NCBI GenBank assembly: GCA_025356055.1
Contig: JANXUU010000140.1
Span: forward strand, 40,569 to 104,568
Reading direction: 5' to 3'
Source of the DNA: Sphingomonas sp.
GTDB lineage: Bacteria > Pseudomonadota > Alphaproteobacteria > Sphingomonadales > Sphingomonadaceae
DNA length: 64,000 nt
In this document: in pieces, positions 4,134 through 60,351 of the stretch
Numbering within the stretch: position 1 is the stretch's first letter
Layout of the letters: the number at the start of each line of letters is the position of its first letter
Notes under the pieces: model-generated
Seen by the model: the letters and a program-made list of their open reading frames with translations, nothing else
Told to the model about the DNA's origin: nothing
Databases searched by the model: none
Program-made: the position numbers and the translations under genes

Positions 4134-6374
<2,241 letters not shown>

Positions 6375-51375: not shown

Positions 51376-52259
51376 CAGAGCATCATCTTTTCGATTGGCA
51401 TGACGAGGATCGCCGATGCACCGGCGGCCTTCAGTTTCTCGAGCGTCTCCCAGAACACCGATTCCTGGCACACCGCTTGGACCGCATAATGGCCTGGGCG
51501 TCCGGCGAGCGGGATGACGGTCGGGGCCTCGGCGCCGGGCAAGATGCGGGCGATTTCGGCGAGCGATTCCTCGGTCGCGTTGAGCACGATATATTTGGAC
51601 TCCGCCGTCGCGATGACACCGTTGATGCGGGTCATGAGAGCGGTGGCGCGTTCCGCCAGCGCTGGGGCGACGGTCTTCAAGGTGCGCACCAGCACCGCCT
51701 CGCTGTCGAACACGGTTTCGACCGCCGCCAGCCCATTGGCCCCCAGCGTCGCGCCGGTCGAGACGAGGTCGCACACGAACCTGGCGATGCCGAGGCGCGG
51801 GGCGAGCTCGACTGCGCCTTTCATCGTGACGATCTCGGCCTCGACGCCGCGTTCCGCCAGAAAGCGTGCGGTCAGGCGCGGGTAGCTCGTGGCGATGCGT
51901 TGGCCCGCGAGCATGGATGTCTCGTAGACCATGCCCTCCGGCGCGGCGATCTTGAGGCTGCAGCGGCCAAAGCCGAGCGCGGCGACGGTCTCGAACCGGG
52001 GTGCGGCAAAGCCCAGCGCATATTCCTCGAGTACGTTCTGCCCGCAGATGCCGAGCTCGCACACCCCGTCGGCGACGAAGGTCGGGATGTCGTCGTCGCG
52101 GACGAACATCAGGTCGAGCGGGAAATTTTCGGCACGTGCGGTCAGCGCATTCTTGCCGCCCTGGATCTTGAGCCCGGCGCCCTTGAGCAAATCCTTGCTC
52201 TGATCGGACAGGCGGCCCGATTTCTGGATTGCGATGTGGAGGCGGCTGCGGTCGGTCAC
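51375..52259 (-). CDS. hisG: ATP phosphoribosyltransferase, long (HisG-L) form (GTG start)
   Basis: LHIAIQKSGRLSDQSKDLL; VRDDDIPTFVADGVCELGI; CDLVSTGATLGANGL; C-terminal regulatory domain to FWETLEKLKAAGASAILVMPIEKMML. Confidence 0.95.
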   Translation of the reverse strand: MTDRSRLHIAIQKSGRLSDQSKDLLKGAGLKIQGGKNALTARAENFPLDLMFVRDDDIPTFVADGVCELGICGQNVLEEYALGFAAPRFETVAALGFGRCSLKIAAPEGMVYETSMLAGQRIATSYPRLTARFLAERGVEAEIVTMKGAVELAPRLGIARFVCDLVSTGATLGANGLAAVETVFDSEAVLVRTLKTVAPALAERATALMTRINGVIATAESKYIVLNATEESLAEIARILPGAEAPTVIPLAGRPGHYAVQAVCQESVFWETLEKLKAAGASAILVMPIEKMML

Positions 52260-52555
52260 TTCGGTTCTTTCATGCGGTCGAGAAGGAGGCGATAACCGCC
52301 GTTCTGCTCCTCTTTCAGGAAGCGGGCGACGCGCACGATCGTGGTCGTGCTGACCCCGGTCGCGTCGTGGATCTCGCGGTAGGTCATGGCGCCGGCGTCG
52401 AGCAATTTGGCGACCTGCCACCGTTCGGCGAGCGTGCGCACTTCGGCGGGAGTGCACAAGTCGCGGAGCACGGCGCGCGCCTCCTCGTCCGAGCGGAGCG
52501 CGGCGAGCACGGCGGCAAGGTCCTCGGCGGGACGGGGGGAAGCGACTGCGGTCAT
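52256..52555 (-). CDS. YerC/YecD-like TrpR-superfamily DNA-binding protein
   Basis: LRDLCTPAEVRTLAERWQVAKLLDAGAMTYREIHDATGVSTTTIVRVARFLKEEQNGGYRLLLDRM; GTGA overlap with hisG. Confidence 0.88.
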   Translation of the reverse strand: MTAVASPRPAEDLAAVLAALRSDEEARAVLRDLCTPAEVRTLAERWQVAKLLDAGAMTYREIHDATGVSTTTIVRVARFLKEEQNGGYRLLLDRMKEPK

Positions 52556-52687
52556 CGGCGTTACAGCGTGATAGAACAATGATACGAGGAGTGCAACAGT
52601 CAATGTTTCAGCAGACGGCCCGCCAGCCGCTCGACGAAGAAATTTCTTTGGTTGACAAACAGGATCCTGGCCCGGCATTGGGGCGCC

Positions 52688-52756
52688 ATGTCGATCAACC
52701 TCTCCAGCACCGTTACCTGGTGGCGCCCCTCACCCCGATGGCGGTCGCGCGGTTGA
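52688..52756 (+). CDS. trpL: trp operon leader peptide (MSINLSSTVTWWRPSPRWRSRG)
   Basis: 22 codons with 3 Trp including tandem TGG TGG at 52718-52723; followed by terminator hairpin and trp operon. Confidence 0.8.
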   Translation: MSINLSSTVTWWRPSPRWRSRG

Positions 52757-52781
52757 TTCTCGTCTTTTGACGATGTCCCCG

Positions 52782-52809
52782 AGGTCCGCGTTTCGCGGGC
52801 CTTTTTTTT
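52782..52809 (+). terminator. Rho-independent attenuator of the trp operon
   Basis: aggtccgcg-ttt-cgcgggcct followed by eight T. Confidence 0.85.
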
Positions 52810-52835: not shown

Positions 52836-53849
52836 ATGATCATCGTGATGAAGCCCAATGTCCCCGACGACGCCGTGACCGAGCTGCTCGAGCGGATCGA
52901 GGCAAAAGGCCTCAAGCCGCTCCACATGCCGGGGAGCGAGCGGGTCGTGCTGGGCGCGCTCGGCGACGAACGGGTGCTTGCCGACCTCGGGCTCGAGCAT
53001 CATCCCTATGTCGAATCGGTCAAGCCGATCCTGGCACCCTACAAGCTGGTCAGTCGCGAGCTCCACCCGCATGACACGATCGTCAATATCGGCGGCGTGT
53101 CGCTCGGCGGTAGCCGGTTCGCGCTGATCGCCGGGCCGTGCGCGGTCGAGAATGAGACCCAGCTGCTCGCCTCGGCCAAGGCGGCCAAGGCGGGAGGTGC
53201 GCGGATCCTTCGCGGCGGGGCATTCAAGCCGCGCACCTCGCCCTACTCGTTTCAGGGGCATGGCGGCGATGGGCTGATGCTGCTCGCCGAGGTCGGGCGC
53301 GAGGTCGGCATGCCGGTGGTCACCGAGGTGGTCGAGAGCGCCGACGTCGAGCTGGTCGCGACGCACGCCGACGCGCTTCAGGTTGGCGCTCGCAACATGC
53401 AGAACTTTGCGTTGTTGAAGGCCGTCGGTCAGGTGAGGAAGCCGGTGATCCTCAAGCGCGGAATGGCGGCGAAGGTCGAGGATTTGCTGCTCGCGGCGGA
53501 GTATATCTTGGCCGAGGGCAACGATCAGGTAGTGCTGTGCGAGCGCGGGATTCGGACTTTCGAAACGGCGACGCGCAACACGCTCGATCTGGCGGCGGTG
53601 CCGTTGCTCAAGATGCTGAGCCATCTGCCCGTCGTTGTCGACCCAAGCCACGGGACGGGGGTGCGCAGCCTGGTCACCCCGATGGCGCTGGCAGGGGCGG
53701 CTGCCGGTGCCGACGGGCTGATGGTCGAGGTGCATTATGACCCCTCGGTCGCGCTGTCGGACGGGGCGCAGTCGCTCTATCCGGCGCAGTTCGAGGCGCT
53801 CGGCAAGCAGTTGGCGCAATTGCTGCCGGTGGTCGGGCGCAGTTTGTGA
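52836..53849 (+). CDS. DAHP synthase, type I-beta with N-terminal ferredoxin-like/ACT-like domain
   Basis: [95 protein letters not shown]. Confidence 0.93.
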
Positions 53850-55402
53850 GCTTGCGCGGCGGCGAAGCGGCGACGCTGGTTCGGCGGCTCGCCGGGCCGG
53901 TGGTCGCGCGCGACCTGCACGCCGCGCTGGTTGCTGACGCGAAGGGCGTGCCACCGCTGTTCATCCAGCGGACGGGCGGGCCCGCGCTGATCGTCGAGGC
54001 GGCGGCGGTGAAGGCGGTGTGCCGGGGGCAAGAAGTTATGCTGACCGCGCTGACCGAGGGTGGGCGCGTGGCGCTGGCCGGGTTGGCAGGGGTGCTGGGC
54101 GAACACGTCGTCGAGCGGTCGGAGGTGCGGCTGGTGGCGCGCTTCTCCCGCTGCAATGCGCCCGAGGAGTTTGACCGCGCGCATTCGAAAACCCCGTTCG
54201 ACGTGCTTCGCGCCCTGGCGTTCGGGCACGAGCCAACCGACCGTGACGAGCCGTTCGCGCTCGTCGCTGCGGGCGTGATCGGGTTTGATCATGTCGATCT
54301 GTTCGAGGAACTGCCGCCGGCGCCAAAGGGGGATTTTCCGGACTTCGTGTTCTGGCTTGCGGAGAGCCTGGTCGTAGTCGAAGCGACGGGGGCGGGGCGG
54401 CTGATCTGCACCGCCTTCGGTAGCGAGGACGAGAGTATCGCGCACCGCCAACGCAGCCTGGCGCAGGAGCGGCTGTCGCTGTTGTCGGCGCGGGTCGAGT
54501 TCGCGCGCGTGATGGGGGCGCCGCAAATGTCGTCCGGAGGGTCGGGGGAGGCGGCGGTGACGACCGATCTCGATGACTCGGAGTATGCGGCCGTCGTCGC
54601 GCGGCTGAAGGAGAATATCGCTGCGGGTGACGTGTTCCAAGTCGTGCCGAGTCGGGCGTTCCGCACGCCCTGCGCCGATCCGACGGCGGCGTTTTCCCGG
54701 CTGGGGGCAGCGGACCCGTCGCGCTATCTGTTCTACACGCACGGCGAGTTCGGCACGTTGTTCGGGGCGTCGCCCGAAACCGCGGTAGCGGTGCGGCGCG
54801 AGGGCGACGAGCGGATTGTCGTCGTCACCCCAATCGCCGGAACCCGGCCGCGCGGGGGCACGATTGACGAGGACGACCGGATGGAGGCGGACCTGCGGCT
54901 CGATGTGAAGGAGGTTGCCGAGCATATGATGCTGGTCGACCTGGCGCGGAACGATGTCGCGCGGGTGGCCGAGCCGGGGACGCGGCGAGTGGCGAGCCTG
55001 CTGTCGGTCGAGCGGTTTGCGCGCGTTATGCACCTCGTCTCGCGGGTCGAGGGGCGGCTCGAGGCCGACCGCGATGCGATCGATGCGCTGGTCGCGTGCG
55101 TGACATGCGGGACGCTTAGCGGGGCGCCGAAATTGCGCGCGCTTGAGCTGATCCGTGAAGCCGAGCGGAGCGCGAGGGGTCCGTATGGCGGGGCGGTCGG
55201 GTGGATCGCGAGCGATGGCTCGATGGACACGGCGATCGTCATCAGGTCGGCATTGGTGCGCGAAGGGGTGGCCGAGGTGCGCGCCGGGGCGGGGGTGGTG
55301 CATGACAGCGACCCGGCATCGGAAGCGGCGGAAACGCGGCAAAAGGCGAGCGCGGTCCTTGCGGCAATCCGGGGTTCGAGCGTGACAAGGGTTGCGATAT
55401 GA
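53846..55402 (+). CDS. trpE: anthranilate synthase component I
   Basis: NIAAGDVFQVVPSRAF; FGASPETAVAV; PIAGTRPRGG; TLSGAPKLRALELIREAE; YGGAVGW. Confidence 0.95.
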   Translation: MSLRGGEAATLVRRLAGPVVARDLHAALVADAKGVPPLFIQRTGGPALIVEAAAVKAVCRGQEVMLTALTEGGRVALAGLAGVLGEHVVERSEVRLVARFSRCNAPEEFDRAHSKTPFDVLRALAFGHEPTDRDEPFALVAAGVIGFDHVDLFEELPPAPKGDFPDFVFWLAESLVVVEATGAGRLICTAFGSEDESIAHRQRSLAQERLSLLSARVEFARVMGAPQMSSGGSGEAAVTTDLDDSEYAAVVARLKENIAAGDVFQVVPSRAFRTPCADPTAAFSRLGAADPSRYLFYTHGEFGTLFGASPETAVAVRREGDERIVVVTPIAGTRPRGGTIDEDDRMEADLRLDVKEVAEHMMLVDLARNDVARVAEPGTRRVASLLSVERFARVMHLVSRVEGRLEADRDAIDALVACVTCGTLSGAPKLRALELIREAERSARGPYGGAVGWIASDGSMDTAIVIRSALVREGVAEVRAGAGVVHDSDPASEAAETRQKASAVLAAIRGSSVTRVAI

Positions 55403-56004
55403 AAATCTTGCTGATCGACAATCGGGACAGTTTCACTTTCAACTTGGCCGACAGCTGCGCGCGGTTGGGGGCCTATGTGAAGGTCGTTCGCAACTCGATT
55501 TCCGCCGAGGCCGCGCTGGCGCGGGCGGAGCGCGAGGGGATGATGATCGTCCTTTCGCCCGGCCCCGGCCACCCGCGCGACGCGGGCTGCTGCATGGAAT
55601 TGATTGCCTTGGCGAAAGGCCGCATCCCCCTGATCGGGATCTGCCTCGGCCACCAGGCGATGGTGCTCGAGGCGGGGGGCGAGGTCGTGCGGGCGCCTGA
55701 GATCGTCCACGGCAAGACCAGCATGATGCGGCATGATTCGACCGGGCCTTTCGACGGACTGCCCAATCCGCTGGCAATCGGGCGCTATCATTCGCTGTGC
55801 ACGCCGACGCCGCCCGCAAATTTCACCGTTCATGGCGAGATCGGCGGGATGGCGATGGCGATCAGCGACGGCGGCACCAAGCAGGTCGGCTTGCAATTCC
55901 ACCCCGAGTCGATCCTGACCCCGATGGGCGATCGACTGCTCGCCAACATCCTTGCCTGGGCCGGTGAGCGCCGCGACGCGCCTGCGATGGAGGGAGCGAT
56001 ATGA
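55399..56004 (+). CDS. trpG: anthranilate synthase component II (unfused)
   Basis: ILLIDNRDSFTFNLADSCARLG; VLSPGPGHPRDAG; GICLGHQAMVLEAGG; GRYHSLCTP; LQFHPESILT. Confidence 0.95.
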   Translation: MKILLIDNRDSFTFNLADSCARLGAYVKVVRNSISAEAALARAEREGMMIVLSPGPGHPRDAGCCMELIALAKGRIPLIGICLGHQAMVLEAGGEVVRAPEIVHGKTSMMRHDSTGPFDGLPNPLAIGRYHSLCTPTPPANFTVHGEIGGMAMAISDGGTKQVGLQFHPESILTPMGDRLLANILAWAGERRDAPAMEGAI

Positions 56005-57032
56005 CCGTCGTCGACCTGGGGCCGGTGGCCAACCCGCTGCCCAAATTGCTGTCGGGCGAAGACCTCCCGATCGAGGATTCGCGGGACTTGTTCGAACGGC
56101 TGGTGCTCGGCAAGCTTGAGCCGGCGGAGATCGCCGCTACCCTCGTGGCGCTCAGGATGAAGGGCGAGACGGTGGAGGAGATGATCGGCGCGGCGCGCGC
56201 GCTGAGCGAGGCGGCGCTGCCGTTCGCGCGGCCCGATTATCTTTATGCCGACTGCTGTGGGACGGGCGGTGACGGGTCGGGGATCATCAACGTCTCGACT
56301 GCGGCCGGGTTCGTCGCTGCGGCGTGCGGGCTGCCGGTAGCGAAGCACGGCAATCGCTCGGTCAGTTCGAAGTGCGGCTCGGCCGACGTGCTCGAAGCGC
56401 TTGGCGCGACGATCGAGGTTTCGCCCGAACTTGCCCGCGCCAACCTCGACGAGACGGGCTTTTGCTTCCTCTACGCGCCGATGTATCATCCGGGAATGAA
56501 GCACGCTGCGCTCGTTCGCCGCCAGTTGCAGGTGCGCACGGTGATGAATCTGCTCGGGCCATGCGTGAACCCGGCGCGGCCGCCCGTCCAGCTGCTCGGG
56601 GTCGCCGATCCGCGACTGCTGCGGCGCATCGCGCAGACGCTCGATGCGATGGGAGTGCGCGAGGCGCTGGTGGTGCATGGCGCAGGGCTCGACGAGGTCG
56701 CGCTTCACGCCGAGACTCGCGCGATTCGTCTGTCGAAGGGTGAGCTGACCGAAATCGAAATTACGCCGGAACAGGCCGGGTTGACCCGCGCGCCGCTCAA
56801 CACGGTCACGGGCGGCGATGCGACGGTCAACGCGGCGCGCCTGCGCGTGCTTCTGGGCGGGCGGGGCGAGCGGGCTGAGACGGATATCGTTGCGCTCAAC
56901 GCCGGGGCGCTGCTGATGACTGCCGGCAAGGCGGGTGACGTGCGCGACGGGACGGGGCAGGCACTCGAGGCGCTGCGTTCGGGCGCGGCAGGCCGAGTGC
57001 TTGACGCTTATGTGGAGGCCAGCCGTGGTTGA
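56001..57032 (+). CDS. trpD: anthranilate phosphoribosyltransferase
   Basis: CCGTGGDGSGIINVSTAAGFVAAACGLPVAKHGNRSVSSKCGSADVLEALG. Confidence 0.96.
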   Translation: MTVVDLGPVANPLPKLLSGEDLPIEDSRDLFERLVLGKLEPAEIAATLVALRMKGETVEEMIGAARALSEAALPFARPDYLYADCCGTGGDGSGIINVSTAAGFVAAACGLPVAKHGNRSVSSKCGSADVLEALGATIEVSPELARANLDETGFCFLYAPMYHPGMKHAALVRRQLQVRTVMNLLGPCVNPARPPVQLLGVADPRLLRRIAQTLDAMGVREALVVHGAGLDEVALHAETRAIRLSKGELTEIEITPEQAGLTRAPLNTVTGGDATVNAARLRVLLGGRGERAETDIVALNAGALLMTAGKAGDVRDGTGQALEALRSGAAGRVLDAYVEASRG

Positions 57033-58386
57033 TGTGTTGTCGCAAATTGTCGCCGCAAAGCGGATCGACGTTGCCGCGCGGTTCGGCGATGTGAGCGCAG
57101 AGGCGATGCGGGAAGGGGTCGCGCCGACGACGCTCAGCCTCAAGACAGCGCTGACCCAGCCCGACGCGCGGTTCGTCATGGAGGTCAAGCGCGCCTCGCC
57201 TTCGGGCCACCGCAGCACGGTCGAACCAGCCGACGCGGCGCGCGCCTATGCCGGGGTCGCCGACGCGATCAGCGTGCTGACCGACGGGCCTTATTTCCAT
57301 GGCTCGCTGGATGATTTGCGCACCGTGCGCGCACTTTTCGACGGGCCGATCCTGGCGAAGGATTTCGTGGTTGATCCGCGCCAGTTGATCGAGGCGCGCG
57401 AGGCAGGGGCCGATGCCGCACTGGCGATGCTGTCGGTGCTGACCGACCAGGAAGTCGCAGCGGTCTATGCCGAGGCGCGGCTGCTTGGGATGGACGTCAT
57501 CACCGAGGTGCATGACGAAGCCGAGATGGCGCGCGCGGTGGCGCTCGGGGCCGAGGTCATCGGCATCAACAATCGCGACTTGAAAAGCCTGACGACCGAT
57601 CTTGCCGTGACCGAGCGGCTTGCCCCGCTGGCACCGGCTGGAACGCTACTGATCTCCGAATCGGGGATCGCAACGCGCGCCGATGTCGAGCGGCTGGGCC
57701 TCCTTGTCGACGCTTTCCTCGTCGGCTCGTCGCTGATGGCCGCGCCCGATGTGCGCGAGGCGGCGCGTGCGCTGGTGTTTGGACGGGTCAAGATCTGCGG
57801 GCTGGCCCGGGATGAGGATGTGACGCTCGCCGCGCGTCTCGGCGCGACCCACGCGGGGTTCATTTTTGTGCCCGGCACCTCGCGCGCGGTGACCCCGGCC
57901 GATGCGCGCCCGCTGGTCGCCCAAGCAATCGCCGCCGGGCTGTTCCCGGTGGGGGTGTTCCGCAACGCCGATCCCGAGGACGTTGCCGAGATCGCCGCCT
58001 CGCTCGGGCTGGCGGCGGTGCAGCTTCATGGCAATGCCAATTATGCGACAATTGCAGCGGTCAGGCGCGGCTTCGACGGCGAGGTGTGGGCGGTCAGCCG
58101 CGATGGCGCCGAGCCAGTGTGCGATGCCGCCGACCGGACGGTGTTCGACAGTGGTGATGGCGGGACGGGCACGACGTTCGACTGGACCCTGCTCGACGGT
58201 CGCCGCGACCTCGCAACCGGATTCCTCGCCGGTGGAATCACGCCCGCCAATGCCGCCGCCGCCGCCCGGGTCGGCGCTTACGGCATCGACGTCTCCTCGG
58301 GCGTGGAAGCCCAGCCTCGTTACAAGGACGCAACCAAAATGAATGCCCTGTTCACCGCCCTCCGCCCCGCCAGCAGGAACCGATAA
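57025..58386 (+). CDS. trpCF: bifunctional indole-3-glycerol-phosphate synthase/phosphoribosylanthranilate isomerase
   Basis: Trp[65 protein letters not shown]; Trp[62 protein letters not shown]. Confidence 0.94.
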
Positions 58387-58387
58387 G

Positions 58388-59551
58388 ATGCGCCAGTCGG
58401 GTCGTTTCGGTAAATTCGGCGGCGCCTTCGTGCCCGAGATATTGGTCCCCGCGCTCGAGCAGCTCGAGGCCGCGTTTCTCGATGCGCAGGGTGATGCCGG
58501 GTTCAATGCGGAGCTTCAAAACCTCCTCACCACCTATGCCGGGCGGCCGACGCCGCTGACCAAATGCCGCAACCTTGGGTCGCAACGCACGCGCATTTAC
58601 CTCAAGCGCGAGGATCTGCTCCACGGCGGGGCGCACAAGACCAACCAGGTGCTGGCGCAGGGACTGCTTGCGAAACGCATGGGCAAGACCCGGCTGATCG
58701 CCGAAACCGGGGCCGGGCAACACGGCGTCGCGACCGCGCTGGCGGGGGCGCTGTTCGGGATGGAGACCAAAATCTACATGGGCGCGCACGATGTCGCGCG
58801 GCAGTCGCTCAACGTGTTCCGGATGGAGCTGATGGGGGCCGAGGTGATCCCGGTGACGTCGGGCAGCCAGACATTGAAGGACGCGGTCAACGAGGCACTG
58901 CGCGATTGGACCGCTAGCTTTGCCGACACCCATTACATCCTCGGCACGGTAGCGGGGCCGCACCCCTTCCCGCTGATGGTGCGCGAGTTTCAGCGCGTCA
59001 TGGGCAAGGAAGCGCGCGAGCAGATCCTCGAGGTCGAGGGCCGACTGCCGGATGCGGTGATCGCCTGCGTCGGTGGCGGGTCGAACGCGATCGGCATCTT
59101 CACCGATTTCGTCGGCGACGAAGGGGTCGAGCTGATCGGGGTCGAACCCGCTGGCCGTGGGCTCGATGGCAGCGAGCATGGCGCGACGATTTTGCGCGGG
59201 TCGCCGGGGATTTTGCACGGCGCCTCGACGCTGCTGCTTCAGGATAGCGACGGGCAGGTGACCGAGAGCTGGTCGATTTCGGCGGGACTGGACTACCCGG
59301 GTGTCGGGCCCGAACATGCGCATCTGAAGGACATTGGCCGGGCGCGCTATGTCGGGTGCGAGGATCAGGATGCGCTCGACGCGTTCGTGCTGCTCGCGCG
59401 AAAGGAGGGGATCGTGTGTGCGTTCGAGAGTGCGCATGCGCTGAGCTACGCGCTGAAACTGGCTGAAGCGGATGAGGACAAGATCCTGCTGATCAACCTG
59501 TCGGGGCGGGGCGACAAGGACATGCTCCAGGCGCGGGAGTTGCTGAAGTGA
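58388..59551 (+). CDS. trpB: tryptophan synthase beta chain
   Basis: [82 protein letters not shown]. Confidence 0.97.
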
Positions 59552-60351
59552 GCCGCCCAATGACCCGCTACTCCGAAATGTTTCAGCGGCTGGCGCAGCG
59601 CAATGAGGCCGCGTTCGGGGCGTTCCTGATGCTCGGCGATCCCGACGCGCAAACGAGCGCCGATCACCTCGACGCCTGCGCGCGCGGCGGGGCGGACATG
59701 ATCGAGGTCGGCATCCCGTTCAGCGACCCGATTGCCGATGGGCCGGTGATCCAGGCGGCGTCGGTGCGAGCCTTGGCGAATGGCGCGAAGGTCAATGATG
59801 CGTTCGCTCGGATCGCCGAGTTGCGGGCGAAGCATCCGGCGATTCCGATCGGGATTCTGACCTATGCGAACTTGCTGATGGCGCGCGGCGAGGCCCGGTT
59901 CATGGCCGATGCGAAGGCGGCGGGGACGGACTCGATCCTCATCGCCGACGTGCCGAGCCTCGAGGCGGAGCCTTATGCCAAGTGGGCGAAAGAGGCCGGT
60001 CTCGACATCGTGATGATCGCCGCGACCAACACCGCGCCCGACAAGCTGGCGATGATCGCGCGGCTGTCGTCGGGCTACACCTACTGCGTCGCGCGCGCCG
60101 GGGTGACGGGGGTGCGGGACGCCCTCGAACTCGACCATGGCGCGTTGTTCGCCGGGCTGGCTGCGGCGGGTGCGCCGCCGCCAGTGCTCGGTTTCGGTAT
60201 CTCGACCCCCGATCATGTGCGGGCGGCGGTGGCGTCGGGGGCGGGCGGGGTGATCAGCGGCTCGGCGATCGTCAAGCTTGTGACCGAGGAGAACTCGACC
60301 GCGAAGATCGAGGCGTTCGTCCGCGAAATGAAGGCGGCCACGCCAAGGTAG
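59548..60351 (+). CDS. trpA: tryptophan synthase alpha chain
   Basis: [69 protein letters not shown]. Confidence 0.95.

Follow-up and report, generated by a model that had tools for sequence, protein, structure and literature searches.

In the E. coli-type trp leader, represented in Rfam by Trp_leader (RF00513), the trp genes are preceded by a terminator and by a leader peptide whose codons include tandem Trp, and 1:2, 2:3, and 3:4 pairings compete in the RNA. The trpL locus of Sinorhizobium meliloti (rnTrpL/peTrpL) is an alphaproteobacterial Trp attenuator; only trpE(G) of the three trp operons is attenuated there, and the leader small RNA is reported to begin with the ATG that opens the leader ORF (PMC7298713). 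Leaders with a Trp-rich ORF, and with a terminator whose 3' arm is repeated in region 2, also head the aroF-trpEGD(CF)B operons of Kangiella and Ferrimonas. A published description of the attenuator treated below was not found for sphingomonads in the open-access literature that we searched.

Here we describe a locus of this type in a 64,000-nucleotide stretch of Sphingomonas sp. DNA (the window, meaning the whole stretch that was analyzed). We conclude, with a probability of roughly 0.93, that a ribosome-mediated transcription attenuator controls its aroF-trpEGD(CF)BA operon, as the initial annotation had proposed. The mechanism is the ordinary, long-known textbook trp attenuator. The locus shares with the E. 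coli-type leader the tandem-Trp peptide, the competing pairings, and the terminator before trp genes, but it scores below the Rfam cut-off, has a predicted leaderless start, and carries an extra hairpin in the antiterminator loop; moreover, aroF comes first, which puts the first shikimate step under this switch as well. In contrast to S. meliloti, the full operon is attenuated here. Gene order, Trp-rich ORF, and terminator resemble those of Kangiella and Ferrimonas, although the leader sequences are unrelated and a leaderless start is not evident in those two. The features are as follows:

52652 to 52680, plus strand: predicted promoter, with a TTGACA -35 box at 52652-52657 and a weak -10 box at about 52675-52680
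52688 to 52756, plus strand: trpL-like leader peptide ORF of 22 amino acids (MSINLSSTVTWWRPSPRWRSRG), predicted to be leaderless
52693 to 52758, plus strand: protector (1:2) fold of the untranslated leader, the minimum free energy fold
52718 to 52723, plus strand: tandem Trp codons TGG TGG, regulatory
52741 to 52750, plus strand: region 2 (GCGGTCGCGC), which can pair with the terminator 5' arm to form the antiterminator
52760 to 52773, plus strand: small TCGTC-TTTT-GACGA hairpin, downstream of the leader stop codon and upstream of the terminator
52781 to 52809, plus strand: intrinsic terminator (regions 3:4), stem 52781-52803 and T8 tract 52802-52809
52836 to 53849, plus strand: aroF, 3-deoxy-7-phosphoheptulonate synthase, the first structural gene (NCBIfam NF006421, 471 bits against a cut-off of 335)
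53846 to 60351, plus strand: the remaining operon genes, trpE to trpA (NCBIfam models, each above its cut-off)

Within this last interval, the plus-strand genes begin at 53846 (trpE), 55399 (trpG), 56001 (trpD), about 57013 (a trpC-trpF fusion, trpCF), 58343 (trpB), and 59548 (trpA); the NCBIfam models listed for the operon are NF010079, TIGR00566, TIGR01245, NF006945, TIGR00263, and TIGR00262. The order aroF-trpE-trpG-trpD-trpCF-trpB-trpA thus places DAHP synthase and all the trp enzymes behind the attenuator.

The leader ORF starts with the ATG at 52688 and ends with the TGA at 52754-52756, giving 22 codons. Its coordinates bear out the initial annotation, which had placed a short ORF here with TGG TGG at 52718-52723 and a further Trp at 52739; this third in-frame TGG occupies 52739-52741 (the other two begin at 52718 and 52721). 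An in-frame TTG upstream was considered as the start and rejected: it sits in the -35 box, and the position of the ATG is nearly fixed relative to the promoter. The terminator stem begins 24 nt after the leader stop codon, and its T tract ends 26 nt before the aroF ATG (52836), in agreement with the spacings of about 25 bp and 26 bp first given. What had been described as a 9-bp GC hairpin with T8 is indeed a terminator, with a stem of 8-10 bp depending on how terminal A-T and G-T pairs are counted (10 pairs and a TTT loop over 52781-52803). Its fold lies 4.5 s.d. below shuffled sequence, and the whole leader folds with z = -2.9 relative to chance. The left neighbor is a divergent gene (52256-52555), so the terminator serves no gene upstream on the plus strand.

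Taken alone, the window is modest evidence, and it is the comparison across leaders that decides. The set of 35 that we analyzed comprised 32 leaders from within the genus, those of G055 and G046 from other genera of the family, and that of Sphingomonas parva. All 35 stand before an orthologous aroF and contain a WW or WWW ORF in the same place, ending 76-122 nt before aroF, and tandem TGG is present in every aligned leader. In every case a GC-rich terminator with a T run follows, 21-44 nt past the ORF stop codon (placed by hand in L037). The leaders also share a GGCGnGC-like region 2 and, usually, a hairpin of variable sequence. In a 36th leader (L139), which was excluded from the counts, the arrangement is the same and the ORF begins with GTG, 35 nt past TTGAC. 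The leader peptides are mostly unrelated except for the Trp codons and a short Arg/Trp tail; such divergence is as expected for a leader selected for its codons and RNA folding.

The best Rfam match of the window leader is Trp_leader (RF00513), which aligns over its full model at 52712-52808 with 25.3 bits and, for a search of 301 bases, an E value of 0.0037, below the gathering cut-off of 41 bits. The leader of a close relative (L129) passes with 41.8 bits, and a Kangiella leader scores 41.0. On these sequence scores, the window leader is most likely a diverged member of the Trp_leader family.

The initial annotation had suggested folding the RNA for mutually exclusive 1:2, 2:3, and 3:4 pairings, and across the leader set these are found. 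When untranslated, the window leader folds as 1:2 plus 3:4. The 1:2 fold pairs 52693-52700 with 52751-52758, 52707-52716 with approximately 52737-52745, and the Trp codons (52719-52723) with 52730-52734; region 2 is likewise paired upstream in most homologous leaders. With the ribosome held at Trp and the terminator 3' arm not yet made, the GGCGnGC-like stretch pairs with the terminator 5' arm. Region 2 begins 12-24 nt past the last Trp codon, and 5-10 bases of the 5' arm are paired with it; with the ribosome at the stop codon it is covered while 70-100% of the terminator pairs are kept (these ranges exclude L037, whose terminator was miscalled by the script). Relative to shuffles, the pairing of region 2 with the 5' arm has a mean z of -1.5 over the 35 leaders, with 14 of 35 individually below 0.05; the leaders are related, and these are not 35 independent tests. 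In the window alone, the high GC content keeps the pairing from exceeding that of shuffled sequence (p 0.33). When the leader is folded statically with the ribosome at Trp, the terminator remains the energetically favored structure in the window and in most homologs, so the switch must depend on the order of synthesis.

The initial annotation had also located the TCGTC/GACGA hairpin correctly at 52760-52773 but gave it a possible part in the competing folds. It is most likely not an arm, since it lies inside the predicted antiterminator loop and fits both states. Its position is conserved (mean z -1.9, with 23 of 35 leaders below -1.65) and its stem sequences are unrelated; we suggest that it would draw the two antiterminator arms together.

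The nonsignificant pairing in the window would suit a plain intrinsic terminator that follows a chance Trp-containing ORF and serves, for example, to insulate the operon from upstream transcription. We regard this as extremely improbable: despite mostly unrelated peptides, all 35 leaders keep the WW or WWW ORF, its near-fixed spacing to the promoter, region 2, and the terminator, and Trp_leader is the best Rfam match.

For the attenuator, we read the parts, their order, their spacing, and their conservation directly from the sequence and infer the transcription start, the stalling, the switch, and its dependence on Trp. RNA polymerase would start at the AUG of the 22-amino-acid leader or immediately beside it, making an mRNA that is leaderless or nearly so. 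When charged Trp-tRNA is scarce, the ribosome would stall at TGG TGG and leave region 2 free to pair with the terminator 5' arm; this antiterminator, with the small hairpin in its loop, would let transcription run on into aroF. With ample Trp, the ribosome would reach the stop codon and cover region 2, and the 3:4 terminator would end a transcript of about 120 nt. With no translation, the 1:2 fold would hide region 2, and the terminator would form too.

The start predicted in this scheme comes from the spacing of the promoter. In 34 of the 35 leaders, TTGA[C/T] precedes the leader ATG by 35-41 nt (by 35-37 nt in 32 leaders), compared with a background, in the same sequences, of 2.7% of positions with TTGA[C/T] 33-38 nt upstream. 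This spacing puts the predicted transcription start at or next to the leader AUG and suggests leaderless translation of the leader mRNA in Sphingomonadaceae. A consensus promoter scan did not call the TTGACA promoter because its -10 box is weak.

The start predicted here at the AUG resembles that reported for the S. meliloti small RNA (PMC7298713), and many relatives have trpC away from aroF, where coordination in trans would make sense. By analogy with rnTrpL/peTrpL, the attenuator might release a terminated RNA or a peptide that also works in trans. We consider this unlikely for the window. In this genome the attenuator precedes all the trp genes, whereas the Sinorhizobium small RNA acts on the trpDC mRNA of a separate operon, which has no counterpart here. 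The peptides have little in common beyond tandem Trp, and resistance in S. meliloti was not increased by the peptides of two further alphaproteobacteria (PMC7298713). That the terminated leader RNA or leaderless peptide might act in trans in this lineage, above all where trpC is far from aroF-trpE, seems to us quite doubtful. If it did, alphaproteobacteria would have evolved trans-acting trp leaders more than once, in this case on an operon acquired horizontally.

The divergent neighbor of the trp operon is a YerC/YecD TrpR-related gene, itself backed by his genes, and a motif like GTTACAnnGTGATAnAACAATGnnACG near its start (within 52256-52600), common to some relatives, may be an operator. 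Such an arrangement would suit control by this TrpR-like protein or by another Trp-binding protein. However, such control would leave the conserved Trp codons and the leader ORF unexplained and could at most add promoter control, and the gene product scores 30.7 bits with the TrpR equivalog model, well below the cut-off of 67.25; protein-mediated control in place of the attenuator is thus very unlikely.

Of the 71 genomes of the genus, 35 encode an AroF of this kind, and few other members of the family have it; among named relatives, Sphingomicrobium astaxanthinifaciens and S. parva are two with a similar AroF. An attenuator general to sphingomonad trpE was rejected: among 26 loci with the other TrpE type, scanned over the 1.5 kb before the match, only three have a WW ORF, and only at L202 does a T run follow it. 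The aroF-linked trp unit is found in only about half of the genus, and many of these genomes have trpC elsewhere; this partial occurrence, together with the frequent separation of trpC, indicates that the acquired unit varies in extent. Trp auxotrophy of the genus members without this aroF/trpE is unsupported, as 64 of 71 genomes have a TrpC homolog.

In a midpoint-rooted tree, the TrpE of these operons clusters with the enzymes of Kangiella, Ferrimonas, and two MAG contigs, a grouping separated with 100/100 branch support from the remaining sphingomonad and alphaproteobacterial TrpE; it thus lies with gammaproteobacterial TrpE, in another clade than that of the S. meliloti trpL operon. The Kangiella and Ferrimonas loci have an identical gene order as far as their DNA was examined, and both have Trp-rich leaders and terminators. 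Given this grouping and these leaders, the operon and its attenuator were probably transferred together, from outside the alphaproteobacteria; joint transfer is the simplest reading of a tree that gives neither direction nor donor.

A Kangiella aroF-trp operon apparently has two tandem trp leaders (L053, about 4670-4910); a WW ORF and a terminator are present in both, and the first of them is the part that reaches the Rfam Trp_leader cut-off. Two MAG contigs, one from Chthoniobacterales (L048) and one deltaproteobacterial (L049), have aroF-trpE-trpG genes similar to the sphingomonad ones, with 64% identity in AroF, and the 330 nt upstream contain no WW leader ORF.

A leader peptide not annotated before and a probable small RNA are additions to these sphingomonad genomes. 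Together, they belong to a textbook trp attenuator that heads a whole-pathway aroF-trp operon in Sphingomonadaceae, an operon probably gained with its switch.
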